Assembly (NCBI RefSeq): GCF_027011145.1
Contig: NZ_JALVAO010000059.1
Span: 1 to 39,851, forward strand
Length of the DNA stretch: 39,851 nt
Source: Thermococcus sp.
Lineage (GTDB): Archaea > Methanobacteriota_B > Thermococci > Thermococcales > Thermococcaceae
Direction of reading: 5' to 3'
Shown here: piece by piece, positions 20,984 through 28,039 of the stretch
How the letters are laid out: each line of letters starts with the position of its first letter
Numbering within the stretch: the stretch's first letter is position 1
Notes under the pieces: generated by a model
What the model was told of the DNA's origin: nothing
The model's database searches: none
The model's input: the letters and a program-made list of their open reading frames with translations, nothing else
Made by a program: the position numbers and the translations under genes

Positions 20984-21006
20984 GCACACTTTTCGAGGTG
21001 ATAGAT

Positions 21007-22524
21007 ATGTTCGTCCGCTCGCTCTCCGCGGGAGGCTCAATAGAAGAAATCGGCGGGAAAGCCCATCGTCTGGCCATCTTAACCAGATACTTCAACGTTC
21101 CGGAAGGTTTTGTGGTTACCACGAAGGCCTACAAGCTCTGGAAAGAAACCAGAAGCCTACCAGAGGACGTTATTGAGGAAATCAGGGAATACTTTCAATC
21201 TCCCTACGTCCTTGAAGGCAGGTTTCCCGTAGTTGTGAGAAGCTCTGCCACCGTTGAGGACAGCGAAAAGGCAAGCTTTGCAGGTGTTTTTGAAAGCGTA
21301 ACCAACGTGAACTCTTTCGATGAGTTAATCAAAGCGATTGAGCGGGTCTTTAGAAGTGCACAGTCAAGGCGCGTGAAGGAGTACATGAAACACCTTGGAA
21401 TTAAAAGAGATGTAAAGATGGCGGTCATAGTCCAGAGGCAGATAAGCCCAAAACTCTCCGGTGTACTCTTCACGCGCTCTCCAAGCGACCCTCACAACGC
21501 TCTCGCGGAGTTCGTCAAAGGCTCCCCTGAGAAACTCGTGAGTGGAGAATCAAGTGGTGAGCGCCTCATTCTCCCACGCGACCCCTCTAAAGTCAAAGAC
21601 CCTCTAATGAGAGAACTGGTGGAGATTGGTCTTGAAGTTGAGGAACTCTTTGGCAAACCCCAGGACATCGAGTGGGCCTATGACGAAACCCTCTGGCTCC
21701 TCCAGTCGAGGGACGTAACGGTTCTGGCACAAAAGCACGAGGAAGCCAAAGGACTGGAGGAATGGTATCCCCTTAAGGGGGTTCCAGCAAGTCCCGGAAA
21801 GGCGAAGGGAAGGGCTTACTTTGTCCTCGATGACCAGCCACCCGAGGAAGCTGAAAAGCTATTCCCTGAAGGGGGAGTACTTGTGACGTACGTTCTTCAT
21901 GCCGAGTATTACGGCCTCTTCGCGAAGGCCTCTGGAATAGTTACGAAAGTGGACAGCGTTCTCTCTCATCCGGCGATAATCGCGAGGGAACTTGGAATTC
22001 CCTGTGTCGTTGGAGTTGACGTTGAGGCAATACGGGACAGGGATGAGGTAATCGTTAATGGGAGTGCTGGAGTTGTCTACGTGAGAAACCCGAGGAAAGT
22101 CCTGAGAAAGTTTGAGCTCTGGAAAGCCAGCTATAAGGAAGACGAAATTACAAGGGAGCTTAGAGATGAGTACGTGGAGGCTCTTGAAGAGCTCTCGCCG
22201 GAGAAGCTAGAGGAGGTAATCCTCAAGGCGTTTTCACTCGTCAGGAGGTTTTATTCCACGGACCAGGAGAGAGCTTTCAACATATACCACTTCATAAACG
22301 ATCTCATGGAAGAGGAAACGCCTAGGATTCTTGCCGAGAAGTTCAACGTTGTTGACGTGTTTTCAAGGGCCGAGAAAGGGAAAAGACCGCGAAGCGAGGA
22401 GGAGAGAAGACTCTTTGAAATCTACCGCATTCTCAAGGTCTTCATCAACTACACTGACGAAAGGGTAAATGATATCCCAGCTCTCTTGTTTGGTATCCAA
22501 AATAACTCAGGGGCGAAATTCTGA
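21007..22524 (+). CDS. PEP-synthase-like protein: ATP-grasp plus phosphohistidine domain
   Basis: A 505-residue protein with an N-terminal pyruvate-phosphate-dikinase-type ATP-grasp domain (GGKAHRLAIL, VPEGFVVT, VVVRSSATVEDSEKASFAG, DIEWAYDETLWLLQSR). A swivelling phosphohistidine domain follows, with VLSHPAIIARELGIPCVVGV supplying the His. The C-terminal PEP/pyruvate TIM barrel of true PEP synthases (about 800 residues) is absent. Residues about 360-505 are instead a helical region I cannot assign. This resembles rifampin-phosphotransferase-like and other dikinase relatives, so PEP synthase activity should not be assumed. Start ATG 21007 follows GAGGTGA. The end overlaps a minus-strand gene by 18 bases. 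Confidence 0.8.
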   Translation: MFVRSLSAGGSIEEIGGKAHRLAILTRYFNVPEGFVVTTKAYKLWKETRSLPEDVIEEIREYFQSPYVLEGRFPVVVRSSATVEDSEKASFAGVFESVTNVNSFDELIKAIERVFRSAQSRRVKEYMKHLGIKRDVKMAVIVQRQISPKLSGVLFTRSPSDPHNALAEFVKGSPEKLVSGESSGERLILPRDPSKVKDPLMRELVEIGLEVEELFGKPQDIEWAYDETLWLLQSRDVTVLAQKHEEAKGLEEWYPLKGVPASPGKAKGRAYFVLDDQPPEEAEKLFPEGGVLVTYVLHAEYYGLFAKASGIVTKVDSVLSHPAIIARELGIPCVVGVDVEAIRDRDEVIVNGSAGVVYVRNPRKVLRKFELWKASYKEDEITRELRDEYVEALEELSPEKLEEVILKAFSLVRRFYSTDQERAFNIYHFINDLMEEETPRILAEKFNVVDVFSRAEKGKRPRSEEERRLFEIYRILKVFINYTDERVNDIPALLFGIQNNSGAKF

Positions 22525-22671
22525 ATCGTAAGTGATCAGAATGGTATAACACCCCTTTTCATCTTCTTCAATTTCTATTTTCCTTAGTCTGATTCCATAG
22601 GTTTTTATTGCGTCCTCTACGATCTCTGGGAGCTCATCTATGAATCCCTTCTTTTTGATCGTCAACATCAT
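22507..22671 (-). CDS. 54-residue protein translationally coupled to the DUF835 gene
   Basis: ATG 22671 overlaps the stop of the upstream DUF835 gene (TAATG), and GGTGAG lies five bases before it inside that gene's last codons. A second ATG follows immediately. The product is charged and soluble: an N-terminal KKKGFIDELPEIVEDAIK helix, then strands LRKIEIEE and CYTILITY. Coding evidence is the coupling, the strong ribosome binding site and a balanced alpha/beta sequence. No family is recognised. Its 3' end overlaps the convergent PEP-synthase-like gene by 18 bases. Confidence 0.65.
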   Translation of the reverse strand: MMLTIKKKGFIDELPEIVEDAIKTYGIRLRKIEIEEDEKGCYTILITYDSEFRP

Positions 22672-23732
22672 TAGGTCTCACCAATGTTTAGAACTTGTTT
22701 TAGGATTTTAACCTGTCTCTTTTCAAGACTTCTCTCATCTAAGATAAGAAGTAGCATACCTCTGTAGAATGCCATGTAATCAGACAAAGTTGCTAGAAAC
22801 TTTAGAACTGATCGGAAATCATTATACATCAGAAGATACTCAAGCCCATCTACAATAACTACTCCCGTGACGTTTTCAAGATATGCCTCTCTGAGATAAC
22901 CTCTGGCTCGTTCGATTATTTTATGGAGCTGTGTTGGTCTTATGTTTCCAGGATGATCTATCATTGTTAATAAGTGGACCTCCCATTTCTCAGGAAGCTC
23001 ACTTTTTCGACTAAACGCTAAAACTGGGAAATTTGAAAGAGCATTAGCATATGCTTTAAATTTTTCTGGCGATACAATAAAAACTCCCTCTCGAATAACT
23101 TCGGGTTTCTCTGTTTTTCTAAGGTTTTTGAATCTTTCCGAGAATATTATATCAAAGAATGCGAAAACCTCAAGAACGTTTAAGATTGCTCCCAGGGTAA
23201 ATCCTATCGGGGCAAACCATTCAACAGGTCGAAGAAATGGATAGTCCATTTTGTGTATCCCATGGGCAGTTATAACCGCACTTAGAAGTGTTCCTGACCT
23301 TGGATAAAACTTTCTAATACCCCACAAGAAAATACCTGCAAAAGTATAGAAGATTCCAGTAATGCCATATGAGAGGTACATAGGCCTAGATATTGGACTT
23401 ACCATTGAATAGACAACGACGTAGGCTGAAACTAGAAAGGGCAGACTTAACGCTACAATTCGTAGTGCGCGTACGGGAAATCCTAGAGCCTCTTCGTCAA
23501 ATAACGTCACAACACCACCTGCCAAAAAAGAAACACCAACTGCCTGAAAAATTGGGACACCCCAGTTGATATTTAGAAATTCTGAAACTATAGAAAGAGA
23601 AGACGTCAAGAAGAAAAACGACCAGAAAAGGAGGGATTTTCTTCTGTATTTCTTCCAGCCTGTGAGCAGAAGTATACCTGCTGTTACTTTTAGGGAGAAA
23701 CTAAGAAACTGAGAAGCTCCCAGTAAGTTCAT
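22671..23732 (-). CDS. seven-helix membrane protein with C-terminal DUF835 domain
   Basis: A 353-residue protein. Residues about 1-200 contain seven hydrophobic helices (for example FSLKVTAGILLLTG, LLFWSFFFLTSSLSIV, IFYTFAGIFLWGI, GFTLGAILNVLEVFAFFDII). The C-terminal 140 residues are a cytosolic DUF835 domain with FIVSPEKF, the KIIERAR helix and the signature VVIVDGLEYLLMYNDF followed by KFLATL. DUF835 is an archaeal domain, common in Thermococcales, that I would compare to degenerate KaiC/RecA-like folds. The architecture suggests a membrane sensor with a signalling output. ATG 23732 is preferred because GGTGATCG precedes it; TTG 23765 is the upstream alternative. Base composition is more AT-rich than in the neighbouring core genes. 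Confidence 0.78.
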   Translation of the reverse strand: MNLLGASQFLSFSLKVTAGILLLTGWKKYRRKSLLFWSFFFLTSSLSIVSEFLNINWGVPIFQAVGVSFLAGGVVTLFDEEALGFPVRALRIVALSLPFLVSAYVVVYSMVSPISRPMYLSYGITGIFYTFAGIFLWGIRKFYPRSGTLLSAVITAHGIHKMDYPFLRPVEWFAPIGFTLGAILNVLEVFAFFDIIFSERFKNLRKTEKPEVIREGVFIVSPEKFKAYANALSNFPVLAFSRKSELPEKWEVHLLTMIDHPGNIRPTQLHKIIERARGYLREAYLENVTGVVIVDGLEYLLMYNDFRSVLKFLATLSDYMAFYRGMLLLILDERSLEKRQVKILKQVLNIGET

Positions 23733-24073
23733 TCGATCACCATTTGCCTCTAAACAGATTTCCAATTAAAACCTTACGCCCTTGTGGTGAGAATATGGAA
23801 TTCGATTTTTATACCAAATTTTTAATTTTAAGTTTCACTTTCAACCTTTAGCAAAAGGCTCAGCTGTGTGCAATTGTTTTAATCCATTGGAAGATATCCG
23901 AAAAATTTAAAACCCCTTTTTTCTCTATGAACATAATAGAGTCAATGGTAAAATCAGGGCTCTATGTTGAGAATCAGATAGTTGTAATCCCTAATTGGGC
24001 TCGAATAAAAATAGGCTGAAATTACAGGGGGGTTTACCCCCTATTGTGTAACAACATTAATTGTTTTTAGTTT
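23733..24073. other. AT-rich gap upstream of the DUF835 gene
   Basis: Contains a minus-strand TATA-like GGTATAAAAATCG (23806-23818) suited to the DUF835 gene and the hairpin listed separately. A 30-codon plus-strand frame (23927-24019, MNIIESMVKSGLYVENQI...) sits behind ATTTAAAA at 23905-23912; it may be a small leaderless gene or a remnant, and I do not call it. Confidence 0.45.
24026..24042 (-). terminator. hairpin downstream of the DUF257 genes
   Basis: A perfect 6-bp stem, AGGGGG/CCCCCT, with loop GTTTA, located about 30 bases beyond the last DUF257 codon. On the minus strand a T5 run follows within about 20 bases. Archaeal termination relies mainly on U-runs, so the hairpin may instead protect the mRNA 3' end. 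Confidence 0.4.
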
Positions 24074-24847
24074 TTATTGATCACAGGACAACTTTTCTAA
24101 CTTTGGAACGCCATTTTTGAAATGGTATTTGAATTTTATAATTCTGCTTTTGAGATCTGGGGCTTTAAGAATTTCAAGGTATCTTACAACTTCCATGCCA
24201 TTCAACTCACTCCTAACGCGAATAACATAAGTTGCCCTTCTGTACACGGAAGCAAGTACTTGGGAGCTTTCTTTTGGCCCCCACAGCCAGAAATTAGTCC
24301 CCTTGGGATACTCCCGATAAGCCCGTGCTTTAGCCCTTAATTCCGCTGAAATTTCAAGATACCTTAGTGTTTCAAGCTCACCACCTAGGATCTCTATGTA
24401 GTCCGAAACATCCATAGTGAATCCGTAGAGCTCTCTTCCCTTGAACAGTCCTCTTTCTGCCCATATTTTTTTATGTGCTTCTACAACTTCAACATACTTT
24501 GTTGGTAAGACTTCTGCGGAAATAGAACCCTTAAGGTACTATATCCCCTCAAGATCACTGATTACGTCATAAAAACTCCCAAAGGTATCTATTATTGTGA
24601 AATTTCCTCGTTTCAAATACTCTCTCGCATTTATACCTGATGTTTCAAATGCTCGCATAAGAACGTGTAGGGGATATGAGATGTTAAAGTATCCTACAAG
24701 ATTATCTTTTTTGAGTTTTTCTCTTAGTATGTGGAGGAGTATATCCTTTCCTCTAGCTCGTGGATCAACCTCGTGAATAAGGATAAAGGACTGTTTTAAT
24801 ATTCCTCCGAGCTCTTTATCAAGTTCTGGAATTTCCCATGACAACAT
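24074..24847 (-). pseudogene. second DUF257-family gene, interrupted by one in-frame TAG
   Basis: The frame is open for 257 codons from ATG 24847 except for a TAG at 24541-24539. Upstream of it lie MLSWEIPELDKELGG, GKDILLHILREKL and FTIIDTFGSFYDV. Downstream the same frame continues YLKGSISAEVLPTKYVEVV, LFKGRELYGFTMDVSDYIEI, and on to KLEKLSCDQ. It aligns with the adjacent paralogue, where GIYQLSG matches GI-stop-YLKG, so the lost residue was probably tyrosine. It starts two bases after the upstream gene, with GGAGGT positioned for coupling. It is a point-mutated gene, a truncated functional one, or a sequencing error. Confidence 0.75.
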
Positions 24848-24849
24848 TC

Positions 24850-25512
24850 CTAACTACCTCCAAACAGGGTTAGTGTTTTCCCTTCGTTGGGTCCTTTGGT
24901 GACTATGCCAACTCTTTCCTCGTCGATTACGTGAGTTTCAATAACTACATCTGATGTGACATAGGCAATATTGCTTATCTCAGGGCATTCTGGTTGAGAG
25001 AGTGTGAGAATTGTCCCATTAGTTTTTACTTTACTAAGAAGCAATTCTCTCATCGCCCATATCATTCTATAAACTAAATATGGTCTTCTAAACAGCTTGC
25101 AAATTCCAGTGGAAGTGTATGTGAATATCCAAAGCCCATCCCACTCCTTAGAATCGAGTATCTTTGTTCCCCATTCCTTGAGTTTTATAACAAAAACTGA
25201 ATCATCTAAATATCCAGAAAGTTGGTAGATTCCATTTTCATTTCTTGGAATACTATACACGCTTCCAAAGGCGTCTAGAACGTGAAAATTTTTCCCTAGG
25301 TATTCTTTGACGTTAAGGCCAATCATTTTGGAATTGCTTTCAAATACTCTAAAAGGCTCATATAAAAACATAAAAACATTCTCACCTTCTTCGAGAAGAT
25401 CTCTAAGAATCATCAAAGAGAACAGTTCTCCATTGGATCCAAGGTCAGCTTGGATTAGGGATAGTACCCCTCCCTCTGGGAGTAGTTGAAGTGCACTTTT
25501 TGGGGCGTTCAT
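24850..25512 (-). CDS. DUF257 family protein
   Basis: A 220-residue cytosolic protein. Features are LLPEGGVLSLIQADLGSNGE, where the P-loop position of KaiC-like proteins would be but lacking a classical GxxxxGKS/T, then DLLEEGENVFMFLYEP, the VLDAFGS motif, and VSKVKT...ILTLSQP near the end. DUF257 is a family described from Pyrococcus/Thermococcus with no assigned function; the overall order of strands suggests a degenerate RecA/KaiC fold (my inference). ATG 25512 follows AGGTGGT. A TATA-like element lies at 25541-25552. It heads a two-gene unit with the TAG-broken paralogue. Confidence 0.7.
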   Translation of the reverse strand: MNAPKSALQLLPEGGVLSLIQADLGSNGELFSLMILRDLLEEGENVFMFLYEPFRVFESNSKMIGLNVKEYLGKNFHVLDAFGSVYSIPRNENGIYQLSGYLDDSVFVIKLKEWGTKILDSKEWDGLWIFTYTSTGICKLFRRPYLVYRMIWAMRELLLSKVKTNGTILTLSQPECPEISNIAYVTSDVVIETHVIDEERVGIVTKGPNEGKTLTLFGGS

Positions 25513-26070
25513 AAGAACCACCTACATATATTTCACCTTGGATTATAAATGCATTTCCTGTCTTTTAATGCTAATTGATAGGGCATCTATGTTGTTGACA
25601 TAAAACCTAAAAGTTGTGAAACCTGTGAGAGTTTCCAGGGAGTGAGGAAAACATGAGTATGCAACGGCTTTTTTCAAATCTAACGGAGGTGGGGCTTTTA
25701 CCTGGAGTTTTAAACTGGACAGAATCCCGCGTTTCCTTTGCAGGAGCCCACCTGAGGTAGCCGACAACGAGATACCCTTCACTTCGCTCTATGAAGTCGA
25801 GAAATCATTAGAATGCTAATTGCTCACATGATGGGAATTACCACATCGACGATCTATCGAAGGGCAGAGTGGTGTTTAAGTATAGCCAATGAAAAACGTC
25901 AACGTTACGCGACGCTTTCTGGGTATTCAATTTTCTTTTGTTCTCGAAGAGCTTGTAATTCAGAATAGACAAAACTAGAGTATGTTCTTTTGTCCAGTAA
26001 AAAGCTATTTAAAGACGCAAGTATAAAATGCACTTCACAAAGTAATAGAACCTAGCTGGAGGCCAACTTC
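25513..26070. other. long spacer with possible gene remnants
   Basis: No gene is called in these 558 bases. Near the left edge is the DUF257 promoter; near the right edge, TATA-like elements (about 26008-26030) and GGAGG serve the lipoprotein gene at 26071. In between, a plus-strand frame at 25813-25968 encodes 51 residues. Read with the preceding codons, it contains REIIRMLIAHMMGITTSTIY, which looks like the helix-turn-helix of a resolvase, transposase or regulator. It has no ribosome binding site and a stop just upstream. I read it as a possible remnant of a mobile element or regulator. Confidence 0.4.
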
Positions 26071-28039
26071 ATGAGAAGAAAAACCATTCTTGGACTCTTA
26101 TTGATTATAGCTCTTCTAACTTCTACACTTGGATGCATCTCGACCTCCCAACAGACATCCACAGAGACAAAAACCTCACCAATACCGGAAAACACAGGTT
26201 CCTTTGGCATTCAGGTTTACAGAGACTGGTACCATAACTCGACGAAATACTTCGAGATCTACTATCCAAAAGAGGTTCGTGACGACCCGATACTCCAGTC
26301 AAAGCTCAACATACTCCTCCTTGGTGCGGACAGTGTCTATGAAAGCTACTCTAAGCTCTTTGGGACCAGACCCCAAAAAGCGAAAATATACCTTTACCCA
26401 TCGGAGAAAGCTCTAGAAAACATCACCGGGAGGAAAGTCCTCTGGTTCGTGAACTACAAAAAGAAGGAAATCCACGTCGCCCTGATTAACGAAACGGGTG
26501 TATACTCTATCCTCGACGTCGACTCGGCGCTCCTTGAATATGCCGCCGGAAAGAAGCTCCCAGACATCATCGCCGTTGGGTTTGGGGCACTGGATGCTGG
26601 GAGAACACCAGTGGGTCCTCATGAAAAGATGGAGAAATACGTGGGCTTGAATAAGTTGAAGTCCCTGAACCTTCGGGGCGGATACAACGCAGTGCTGTTC
26701 GCTGAGGCCAACGACCTGATGGAGTACATCGCCGACGAGTACGGCCCGCTGGCCCTCGTTAAGGTTCTGAAAACGGGCGGGATCCCGGAAATCAACTGGA
26801 GTGACTTCATGAAATTTGCCACTGCCCTTGAGGGGACTGCTGGGATTGGAGTGACAACAATTGACATGAACATCAGCTTAGAGAGGAGAAAGTTCGATGC
26901 AGTTGTGGACTACGATAACATTACATCACAGTCCTACGTCTACTTCTGGAGAATGCCGAGGCTCAAAGTTGAGGACATCAACGTTGACAACAGGAGCGTT
27001 GGATTCGTCCAGGGTTTCACGCTGGTCATTCCCCTGAGAGACTTCAAAAACGGGAGCGTGGGGATAAAATACATCGGCGACTACTCAACAATGAAGAAAA
27101 TCGCGCCCCAAAGGGGCTACATTGAGGGGCAGATTACAGAGGACATGGCGTTTCTAAAGATGGAATTCCTGAGACCTATGCTGAACTCCCTTGAACTCTT
27201 TCACGTTATCACAGTCAGGGTCAAAACAGACAAGGGAACCGTAATAGGCCCGGGGGGAAGAGATCGCCCCGGGAGTATGGAGAATCACGTTTCCGCACGG
27301 CTTTAACGGGGTAATCCCGGTTTTCGTCGGGAACTTTAAGAGAATTGAGCTGATGGACGGTCGTCTGACGGTTTACTACATGGGAATTGATGACGAAACC
27401 GCGAAGAGATACGCAAACCTCACCGAGAAAATTTTAGGCTTTGGGATGAGGCATTTTGGAAAGCCTGGGTACGGAAGAGTCAAGGTCGTTTATCCTAGAG
27501 GAATAAACATATCGAACGAGATGTTTGACGTCTTGGCGTACTCTTACAATCCCGTACGCTACAAATACGGCTATTCCTACGAGGTGGCGCACTGGTGGGT
27601 TCCCGGGACTGTTGTATTCGTTTCAAACGAAAGCCAGGTCTGGTTCAATTTTGCCTTTCCGGCGTACTTCTCCTTGAAATATGCCGAGAACGTTTCGGAG
27701 GAAGATTACATCGCGTTAAGGAACTACTACATTTCCGTGTACGACAGGGAGACGGACTACGGAAAGAGAGACCTTCCCATAACCGGGGTCTGGAAAATAT
27801 GGGGCATGGACATCAACCGCTATTATGCCATTGCATCGTACAAAGGAGCACTGGTTCTCGAGAAACTTGAGAAGTTTACAGGAAGAGAAGCGTTCTACAA
27901 ATCCCTCAGGGAGTTTTTCGAGGAGTACAGGTTCAGGGAAGGGGATCTCAATGGATTTGTGGCAATCCTGGAAAGGAACTCCGGAAAGCCCGTCAGGGAG
28001 CTCTTCCAGAATTTGACAACGAGCACCGGTTTGCCGTAG
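26071..28039 (+). pseudogene. surface lipoprotein with peptidase-MA/M1-like domains, split by a frameshift
   Basis: The first part (26071-27306) encodes a signal sequence ending in TLGC (lipid-anchor cysteine near residue 22), a Thr/Ser-rich linker and a peptidase-MA-like region (KAKIYLYPSEKAL, NDLMEYIADEYGPLALVKVL). A G6 run at 27252-27257 carries one G too many. With five Gs the frame continues GEEIAPGVWRITFPHGFNG...LTVYYMGIDDE to TAG 28037-28039, about 655 residues in all. The second part resembles an M1 aminopeptidase, but the zinc motif reads YEVAHWW instead of HExxHxW and NFAFPAY instead of NEGFAEY. Even the repaired protein would thus lack key ligands. It could be a slippage-controlled gene, a pseudogene or a sequencing error. 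Confidence 0.75.

Follow-up and report, generated by a model that had tools for sequence, protein, structure and literature searches.

What are four uncharacterised genes doing side by side in an A+T-rich part of a Thermococcus genome, and how did they come to be there? The genes lie in a 39,851-nucleotide stretch (contig NZ_JALVAO010000059.1, RefSeq assembly GCF_027011145.1), which we refer to as the window. All four are carried on the minus strand: two adjacent genes that we call A and B, a gene for a membrane protein with a DUF835 domain, and a gene of 54 codons. A preliminary description, made from the sequence alone, had proposed that they form an undescribed membrane signalling system. 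We are instead highly confident that the interval is what is left of a known system, the Thermococcales cluster for de novo purine synthesis, which has eroded where it originally stood. This conclusion is carried by synteny with relatives, by the absence of the pathway, by fossils of cluster genes and spacers, and by codon-level constraint on the genes that stayed.

Cluster order, missing enzymes and fossils

We fetched approximately 49 loci around gene A, the 54-residue gene and the cluster flanks, clustered all of their open reading frames (ORFs), and named the clusters by Pfam; purL and purP2 were named as the 712-residue and 331-residue paralogues of purM and purP at the expected place. 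In relatives, guaAb, purP2, purL, purQ, purS, purP and purD run in one direction, followed by A, B and purE in the opposite direction, purT back again, and then purM, an optional DUF835 gene, the 54-residue gene, purC, purF and an fdhA-like gene. The outer flanks, in relatives and at the window relic alike, are guaAb on one side and DUF4932/pps-like genes on the other. In 23 of 24 loci, drawn from five genera, A and B adjoin a purD that is transcribed divergently, and the next gene is purE in 21 of these and purK in 2. The purK-type ATP-grasp genes that replace purE after A and B were found in G023 (L118 9243-10400) and G009 (L145 7835-8959). The sole exception, G089 (L152 1819-9064), has divergent A and B preceded by a ribonucleotide reductase that carries an intein and followed by a phosphoribosyltransferase, which is still a setting of nucleotide metabolism.

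The window keeps the order A, B, DUF835 gene, 54-residue gene along with both outer flanks, and holds no intact pur enzyme gene. A search of its own genome found phosphoribosylaminoimidazole-succinocarboxamide (SAICAR) synthetase to be absent, and queries with purP, purD, purE, purT, purM, purC, purF and purS returned weak paralogues only. The window resembles the purine cluster of Thermococcales in accessory-gene order, outer flanks, spacer DNA and a purQ stump, and differs from it in lacking all eight searched enzyme genes; the genes left at the locus cannot make purines.

Cluster DNA was found in decayed form where the ancestral order predicts it, as a purQ fragment and as the purE-purT and purD-A spacers (Table 1); the preliminary description had missed these fossils, which lie both inside and beside the interval. 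The purQ fragment matched annotated purQ at the nucleotide level (L141, best E value 8e-15) and PurQ by tblastn (E value 5e-9), and carries six frame-shifting gaps relative to G050, the genome that is sister to the window genome in an RpoB tree (support 100/100) and that retains the cluster. At least five deletions would account for the present arrangement: one of purL and purP2, which left the purQ stump, one of purS, purP and purD, one of purE, one of purT together with purM, and one of purC and purF. These would have taken the enzyme genes and left the non-enzymatic guest genes, that is, A, B, the DUF835 gene and the 54-residue gene.

Because synonymous sites are saturated relative to G050, the plain ratio of nonsynonymous to synonymous substitution rates was uninformative, and we therefore compared mismatches by codon position with a baseline from functional genes. 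At second codon positions the mismatch to G050 is 0.18 in the purQ fossil, against 0-0.05 in functional purQ genes. B (0.11) and the 54-residue gene (0.09) have no indels and show no excess over their baseline of 0.09-0.11, while A (0.15) and the DUF835 gene (0.16) show a mild excess over 0.10-0.13. With purQ decayed and the guests showing little or no excess, selection held the guest genes through at least some of the period in which purQ was rotting.

We then compared losses of the pathway among genomes of 90-99% completeness. It is also absent from G020, G026 and G058, and the RpoB tree places these three losses and that of the window genome separately. All four genomes without the pathway retain the 54-residue gene. 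The G020 copy (L115 5800-6800) is intact, with decayed purM on one side and decayed purC on the other, and the G026 copy has a purF fossil as its neighbour. Only the window genome among the four keeps A and B. Its loss is separate from that of G026, which has no close A homologue; the window still has A, a broken B and the DUF835 gene. The G020 copy of purO carries an in-frame TAG. Purine-auxotrophic Thermococcus, among them T. onnurineus NA1 (PMC3261824), have likewise lost the pathway completely.

Table 1. Features of the eroded interval, in window positions
Feature	Position	Strand	Comparison
54-residue protein gene, beta-alpha-beta-beta model, intact	22507..22671	-	Flanked by purM and purC in the majority of Thermococcus genomes
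353-residue membrane protein gene, multi-helix N-terminal half plus DUF835, intact	22671..23732	-	PF05763, 98.8 bits (cut-off 33.1)
purM-DUF835 junction relic, edge of the purT and purM deletion	23727..23780		76% over 54 bp to L105 8057-8109
purE-purT convergent intergenic relic	23839..24039		71% over 208 bp to G050 L142 1502-1706, E value 7e-19; alignment A6
25-bp element TTGGAAGATATCCGAAAAATTTAAA, BRE/TATA-like	23887..23911	+	Zero substitutions relative to G050
PH0321-family gene B, one frame, TAG at 24539-24541	24074..24847	-	75% identity to G050 B, no indels
PH0321-family gene A, intact, without P-loop	24850..25512	-	72% identity to G044 A; approximately 220 residues from ATG
purD-A intergenic relic (5' side of A)	25525..25612		77.5% over 89 bp to G050 L142 3710-3795
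purQ pseudogene fragment, approximately codons 84-168, several frameshifting indels	25657..25909	+	Nucleotide matches to annotated purQ (L141)

The PH0321-family pair

A and B had been described as a DUF257 pair, a family name that did not hold, and B proved not to be an intact gene. An hmmscan of both against PF03192 (DUF257; Pfam cut-off 25 bits) gave no match at E ≤ 1, and a PF03192 search of the window genome matched six other DUF257 genes and neither A nor B, so we dropped DUF257 membership. By hhalign against the DUF257 proteins of the same genome, A reached a probability of 64%, a weak similarity, and B 1.9%, no profile match; a RecA-like fold is possibly common to DUF257 and A. The pair belongs to the family of PH0321 from Pyrococcus horikoshii, whose structure, PDB 3BS4, shows a bound peptide. 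A profile built from 23 intact B proteins matched 3bs4 at an E value of 1e-115, which makes PH0321 an orthologue of B; A matched it at 8e-13 and matched B with a probability of 98.9% in a comparison of hidden Markov models, and from these similarities A is taken as a distant paralogue of B and PH0321. The AlphaFold model of A (predicted local distance difference test, pLDDT, 92) had 3bs4 as its first Foldseek match (E value 3e-13), with KaiC-like proteins next, and its predicted fold is KaiC/RecA-like.

Gene A as called begins at GTG 25521 and encodes 223 residues; intact B orthologues have 253, and the premature TAG in the window copy is either a recent mutation or an assembly error. An active KaiC/RecA ATPase has a P-loop with its lysine, which A and B both lack: there is no GK motif at the P-loop site of A, and the lysine position in B varies among K, R, V and S (alignments A1 and A2). 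B does conserve a Walker-B-like aspartate. Whereas the window copy of B is interrupted, the G006 gene identical to PH0321 sits in an intact purine cluster.

From the fixed position beside purD and purE, and from the lack of a close A homologue in the other three genomes without the pathway, we infer that A and B may be a pair of inactive ATPases linked to purine synthesis, a possible rather than a probable reading. In this scheme the two would be translationally coupled, catalytically dead KaiC/RecA-like proteins that assist or regulate purine synthesis near the purD-purE steps; once the pathway was gone, B would have been hit by a recent nonsense mutation and A would be drifting faster than the A of relatives. 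In a collection with few subscription journals and without the KaiC-hub paper, we found no literature linking PH0321 to purine synthesis.

The DUF835 and 54-residue proteins and the proposal of a signalling system

The preliminary description was right that a DUF835 domain follows a multi-helix module and that the 54-residue gene is coupled to it. The window protein matches the full domain (Table 1), its N-terminal half has six or seven hydrophobic segments by hydropathy, and its stop codon overlaps the start of the 54-residue gene (TAATG), an overlap common to relatives that have the DUF835 gene. Its start had been placed at TTG 23765; ATG 23732 is likelier, as relatives use that position. 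Orthologues of the DUF835 gene have purM on one side and the 54-residue gene on the other in G022, G023, G025, G040, G044, G050 and G002, and also in G062, where the 54-residue gene is damaged. The window genome has 12 DUF835 copies. The family has been listed among inactivated KaiC-like domains (PMC5847659); here the domain is joined to a membrane half of several helices, and its gene occupies, in only some members of the genus, the place that follows purM and precedes the 54-residue gene. The gene is a lineage-specific insertion.

The 54-residue gene has homologues, one copy each, in 64 of 94 Thermococcaceae genomes, and it occurs in 3 of 12 genera of the phylum sample; mean column identity is 71% (alignment A3). 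AlphaFold models the protein confidently (pLDDT 91) as a beta-alpha-beta-beta unit. The sequence libraries searched contained no family for it, no solved structure was related by sequence, and the best match of the fold search (E value 0.04) was not significant; a likeness of the model to dodecin and ACT was dropped, with simple topology alone in common. In genus g4 (L127-L130, L138), the gene consistently lies beside a TYW2/Trm5-type methyltransferase, a radical S-adenosylmethionine protein with a tail like that of TATA-binding protein, and a PP-loop protein, neighbours hinting at tRNA modification. The gene is damaged or missing in the purC-bearing genomes G062, G072, G075 and G057. Kept where the pathway is gone and lost from some genomes with purC, it is decoupled from the pathway, and its protein probably has a role other than purine synthesis. 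Retention in all four losses is suggestive, since the gene is common in its genera anyway; the intact gene of G020 is the stronger point. In our reading the DUF835 protein would be a sensor-like membrane insertion of one lineage and the 54-residue protein an independent small protein.

These distributions bear on the proposal that DUF835 sensor, 54-residue partner and pair act as one membrane signalling circuit. The four genes do share a strand, the DUF835-54-residue coupling is conserved wherever DUF835 is present, inactivated KaiC-like domains have been proposed as archaeal signalling modules (PMC5847659), and the survivors retain codon-level constraint. The families are nonetheless separable: Pyrococcus has A and B without the 54-residue gene, many Thermococcus genomes and the three other genomes without the pathway have the 54-residue gene without a close A homologue, many loci with the 54-residue gene have no DUF835 gene, and B is broken in the window. 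We consider a single obligate system of this kind unlikely. As had been expected, the genes recur together and A has a KaiC/RecA-like predicted fold, but they recur as accessories of the purine cluster and not as a membrane signalling system that stands by itself.

Base composition and origin of the stretch

The A+T-rich stretch and its four genes are real: positions 22525-26070 have a GC content of 38.6%, against 52% in the flanking DNA on either side. GC content at third codon positions (GC3) is 0.33-0.46 in genes of the island and 0.56-0.70 in flanking genes. In A, B and the DUF835 gene it is 0.33-0.35, close to the GC content of local non-coding DNA (0.33-0.40), and we read this drop to the non-coding level as a loss of constraint on codon usage.

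The same low GC3 could suggest that gene transfer from an AT-rich relative brought the AT-rich genes to this locus, as could the saturation of synonymous sites relative to G050, even though guaAb differs little, and gene trees in which the window genes do not group with G050. Against this stand the flanks, which are those of the native cluster, and the purQ and spacer fossils, which are local and match the cluster in order and strand. The third positions of the guests look like drift to the local neutral composition, and their nearest relatives are found in species of the genus with a higher GC content. Import is therefore improbable, and slightly more so than the signalling system.

Several points do weigh against a remnant eroded in place. 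The trees for A, B and the DUF835 gene give the window long branches that lie apart from G050, although a mis-framed row for G023 spoiled the tree of A, and GC3 has fallen far for the time that has passed since the split. The window genome is an assembly of 70 contigs, 96% complete, and an assembly error is possible behind the TAG in B.

The weakest alternative takes the pair for the missing inosine monophosphate cyclohydrolase of Thermococcales without PurO, an enzyme reported as unidentified in Pyrococcus and some Thermococcus (PMC3261824, PMC6797443); the constant position in the purine cluster would fit, but we dropped this role as very improbable on distribution, since PurO and a close A homologue are both missing from approximately 14 genomes with purC and both present in many.

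Surrounding DNA and what the scar tells

The 25-bp element in the purE-purT spacer has the form TTGGANNATATCCGAAAA(A/G)TTTAAA and resembles an archaeal B recognition element (BRE) and TATA box. It is near-invariant between convergent purE and purT (L142 1550, L106 5507, L133 8533 and others), and in other fetched loci with annotated neighbours it lies beside purT, mostly in purE-purT spacers. It is perfect in the window despite the loss of both genes and may be the start of an unannotated transcript. No known RNA family was found in the interval. We dropped a structured RNA in the spacer, as its fold is weak (z -1.7 for the window and -0.2 for G050) with covariation almost nil, and a small ORF, as its frame is closed in G050 (by eye, alignment A6).

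Beyond the guests, positions 20998-22524 encode a 508-residue protein that has only the ATP-binding and mobile domains of phosphoenolpyruvate synthase. Its gene is apparently split in G018, and its 3' end overlaps that of the 54-residue gene at the deletion scar. Where relatives carry purL and purP2, the window has two genes (26071-28039), one lipoprotein-like and the other M1-peptidase-like, with no orthologues among the fetched loci. A scan of named genomes returned a single relative, Thermococcus sp. MAG 4561-380. We also dropped a defence system, for which PADLOC gave no match, and a phage or plasmid origin, since the island had no match in phages and the 54-residue protein none in plasmids.

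Combining the lines above, we tentatively propose that the dead KaiC-like pair is an unrecorded regulator or scaffold of purine synthesis at the purD-purE boundary, and that an unrelated role of the 54-residue protein keeps its gene alive after the pathway is lost. Loss of the pathway in Thermococcus was already known from T. onnurineus; the scar adds, for each neighbouring gene, whether it may have depended on that pathway or did not. It flags the PH0321 family, whose structure is solved, as a possible accessory of the purine pathway in Pyrococcus and Thermococcus, and it sets the 54-residue protein, which survives each loss seen, apart from that pair. With three survivors intact, the locus is a natural test of what four uncharacterised genes are for.

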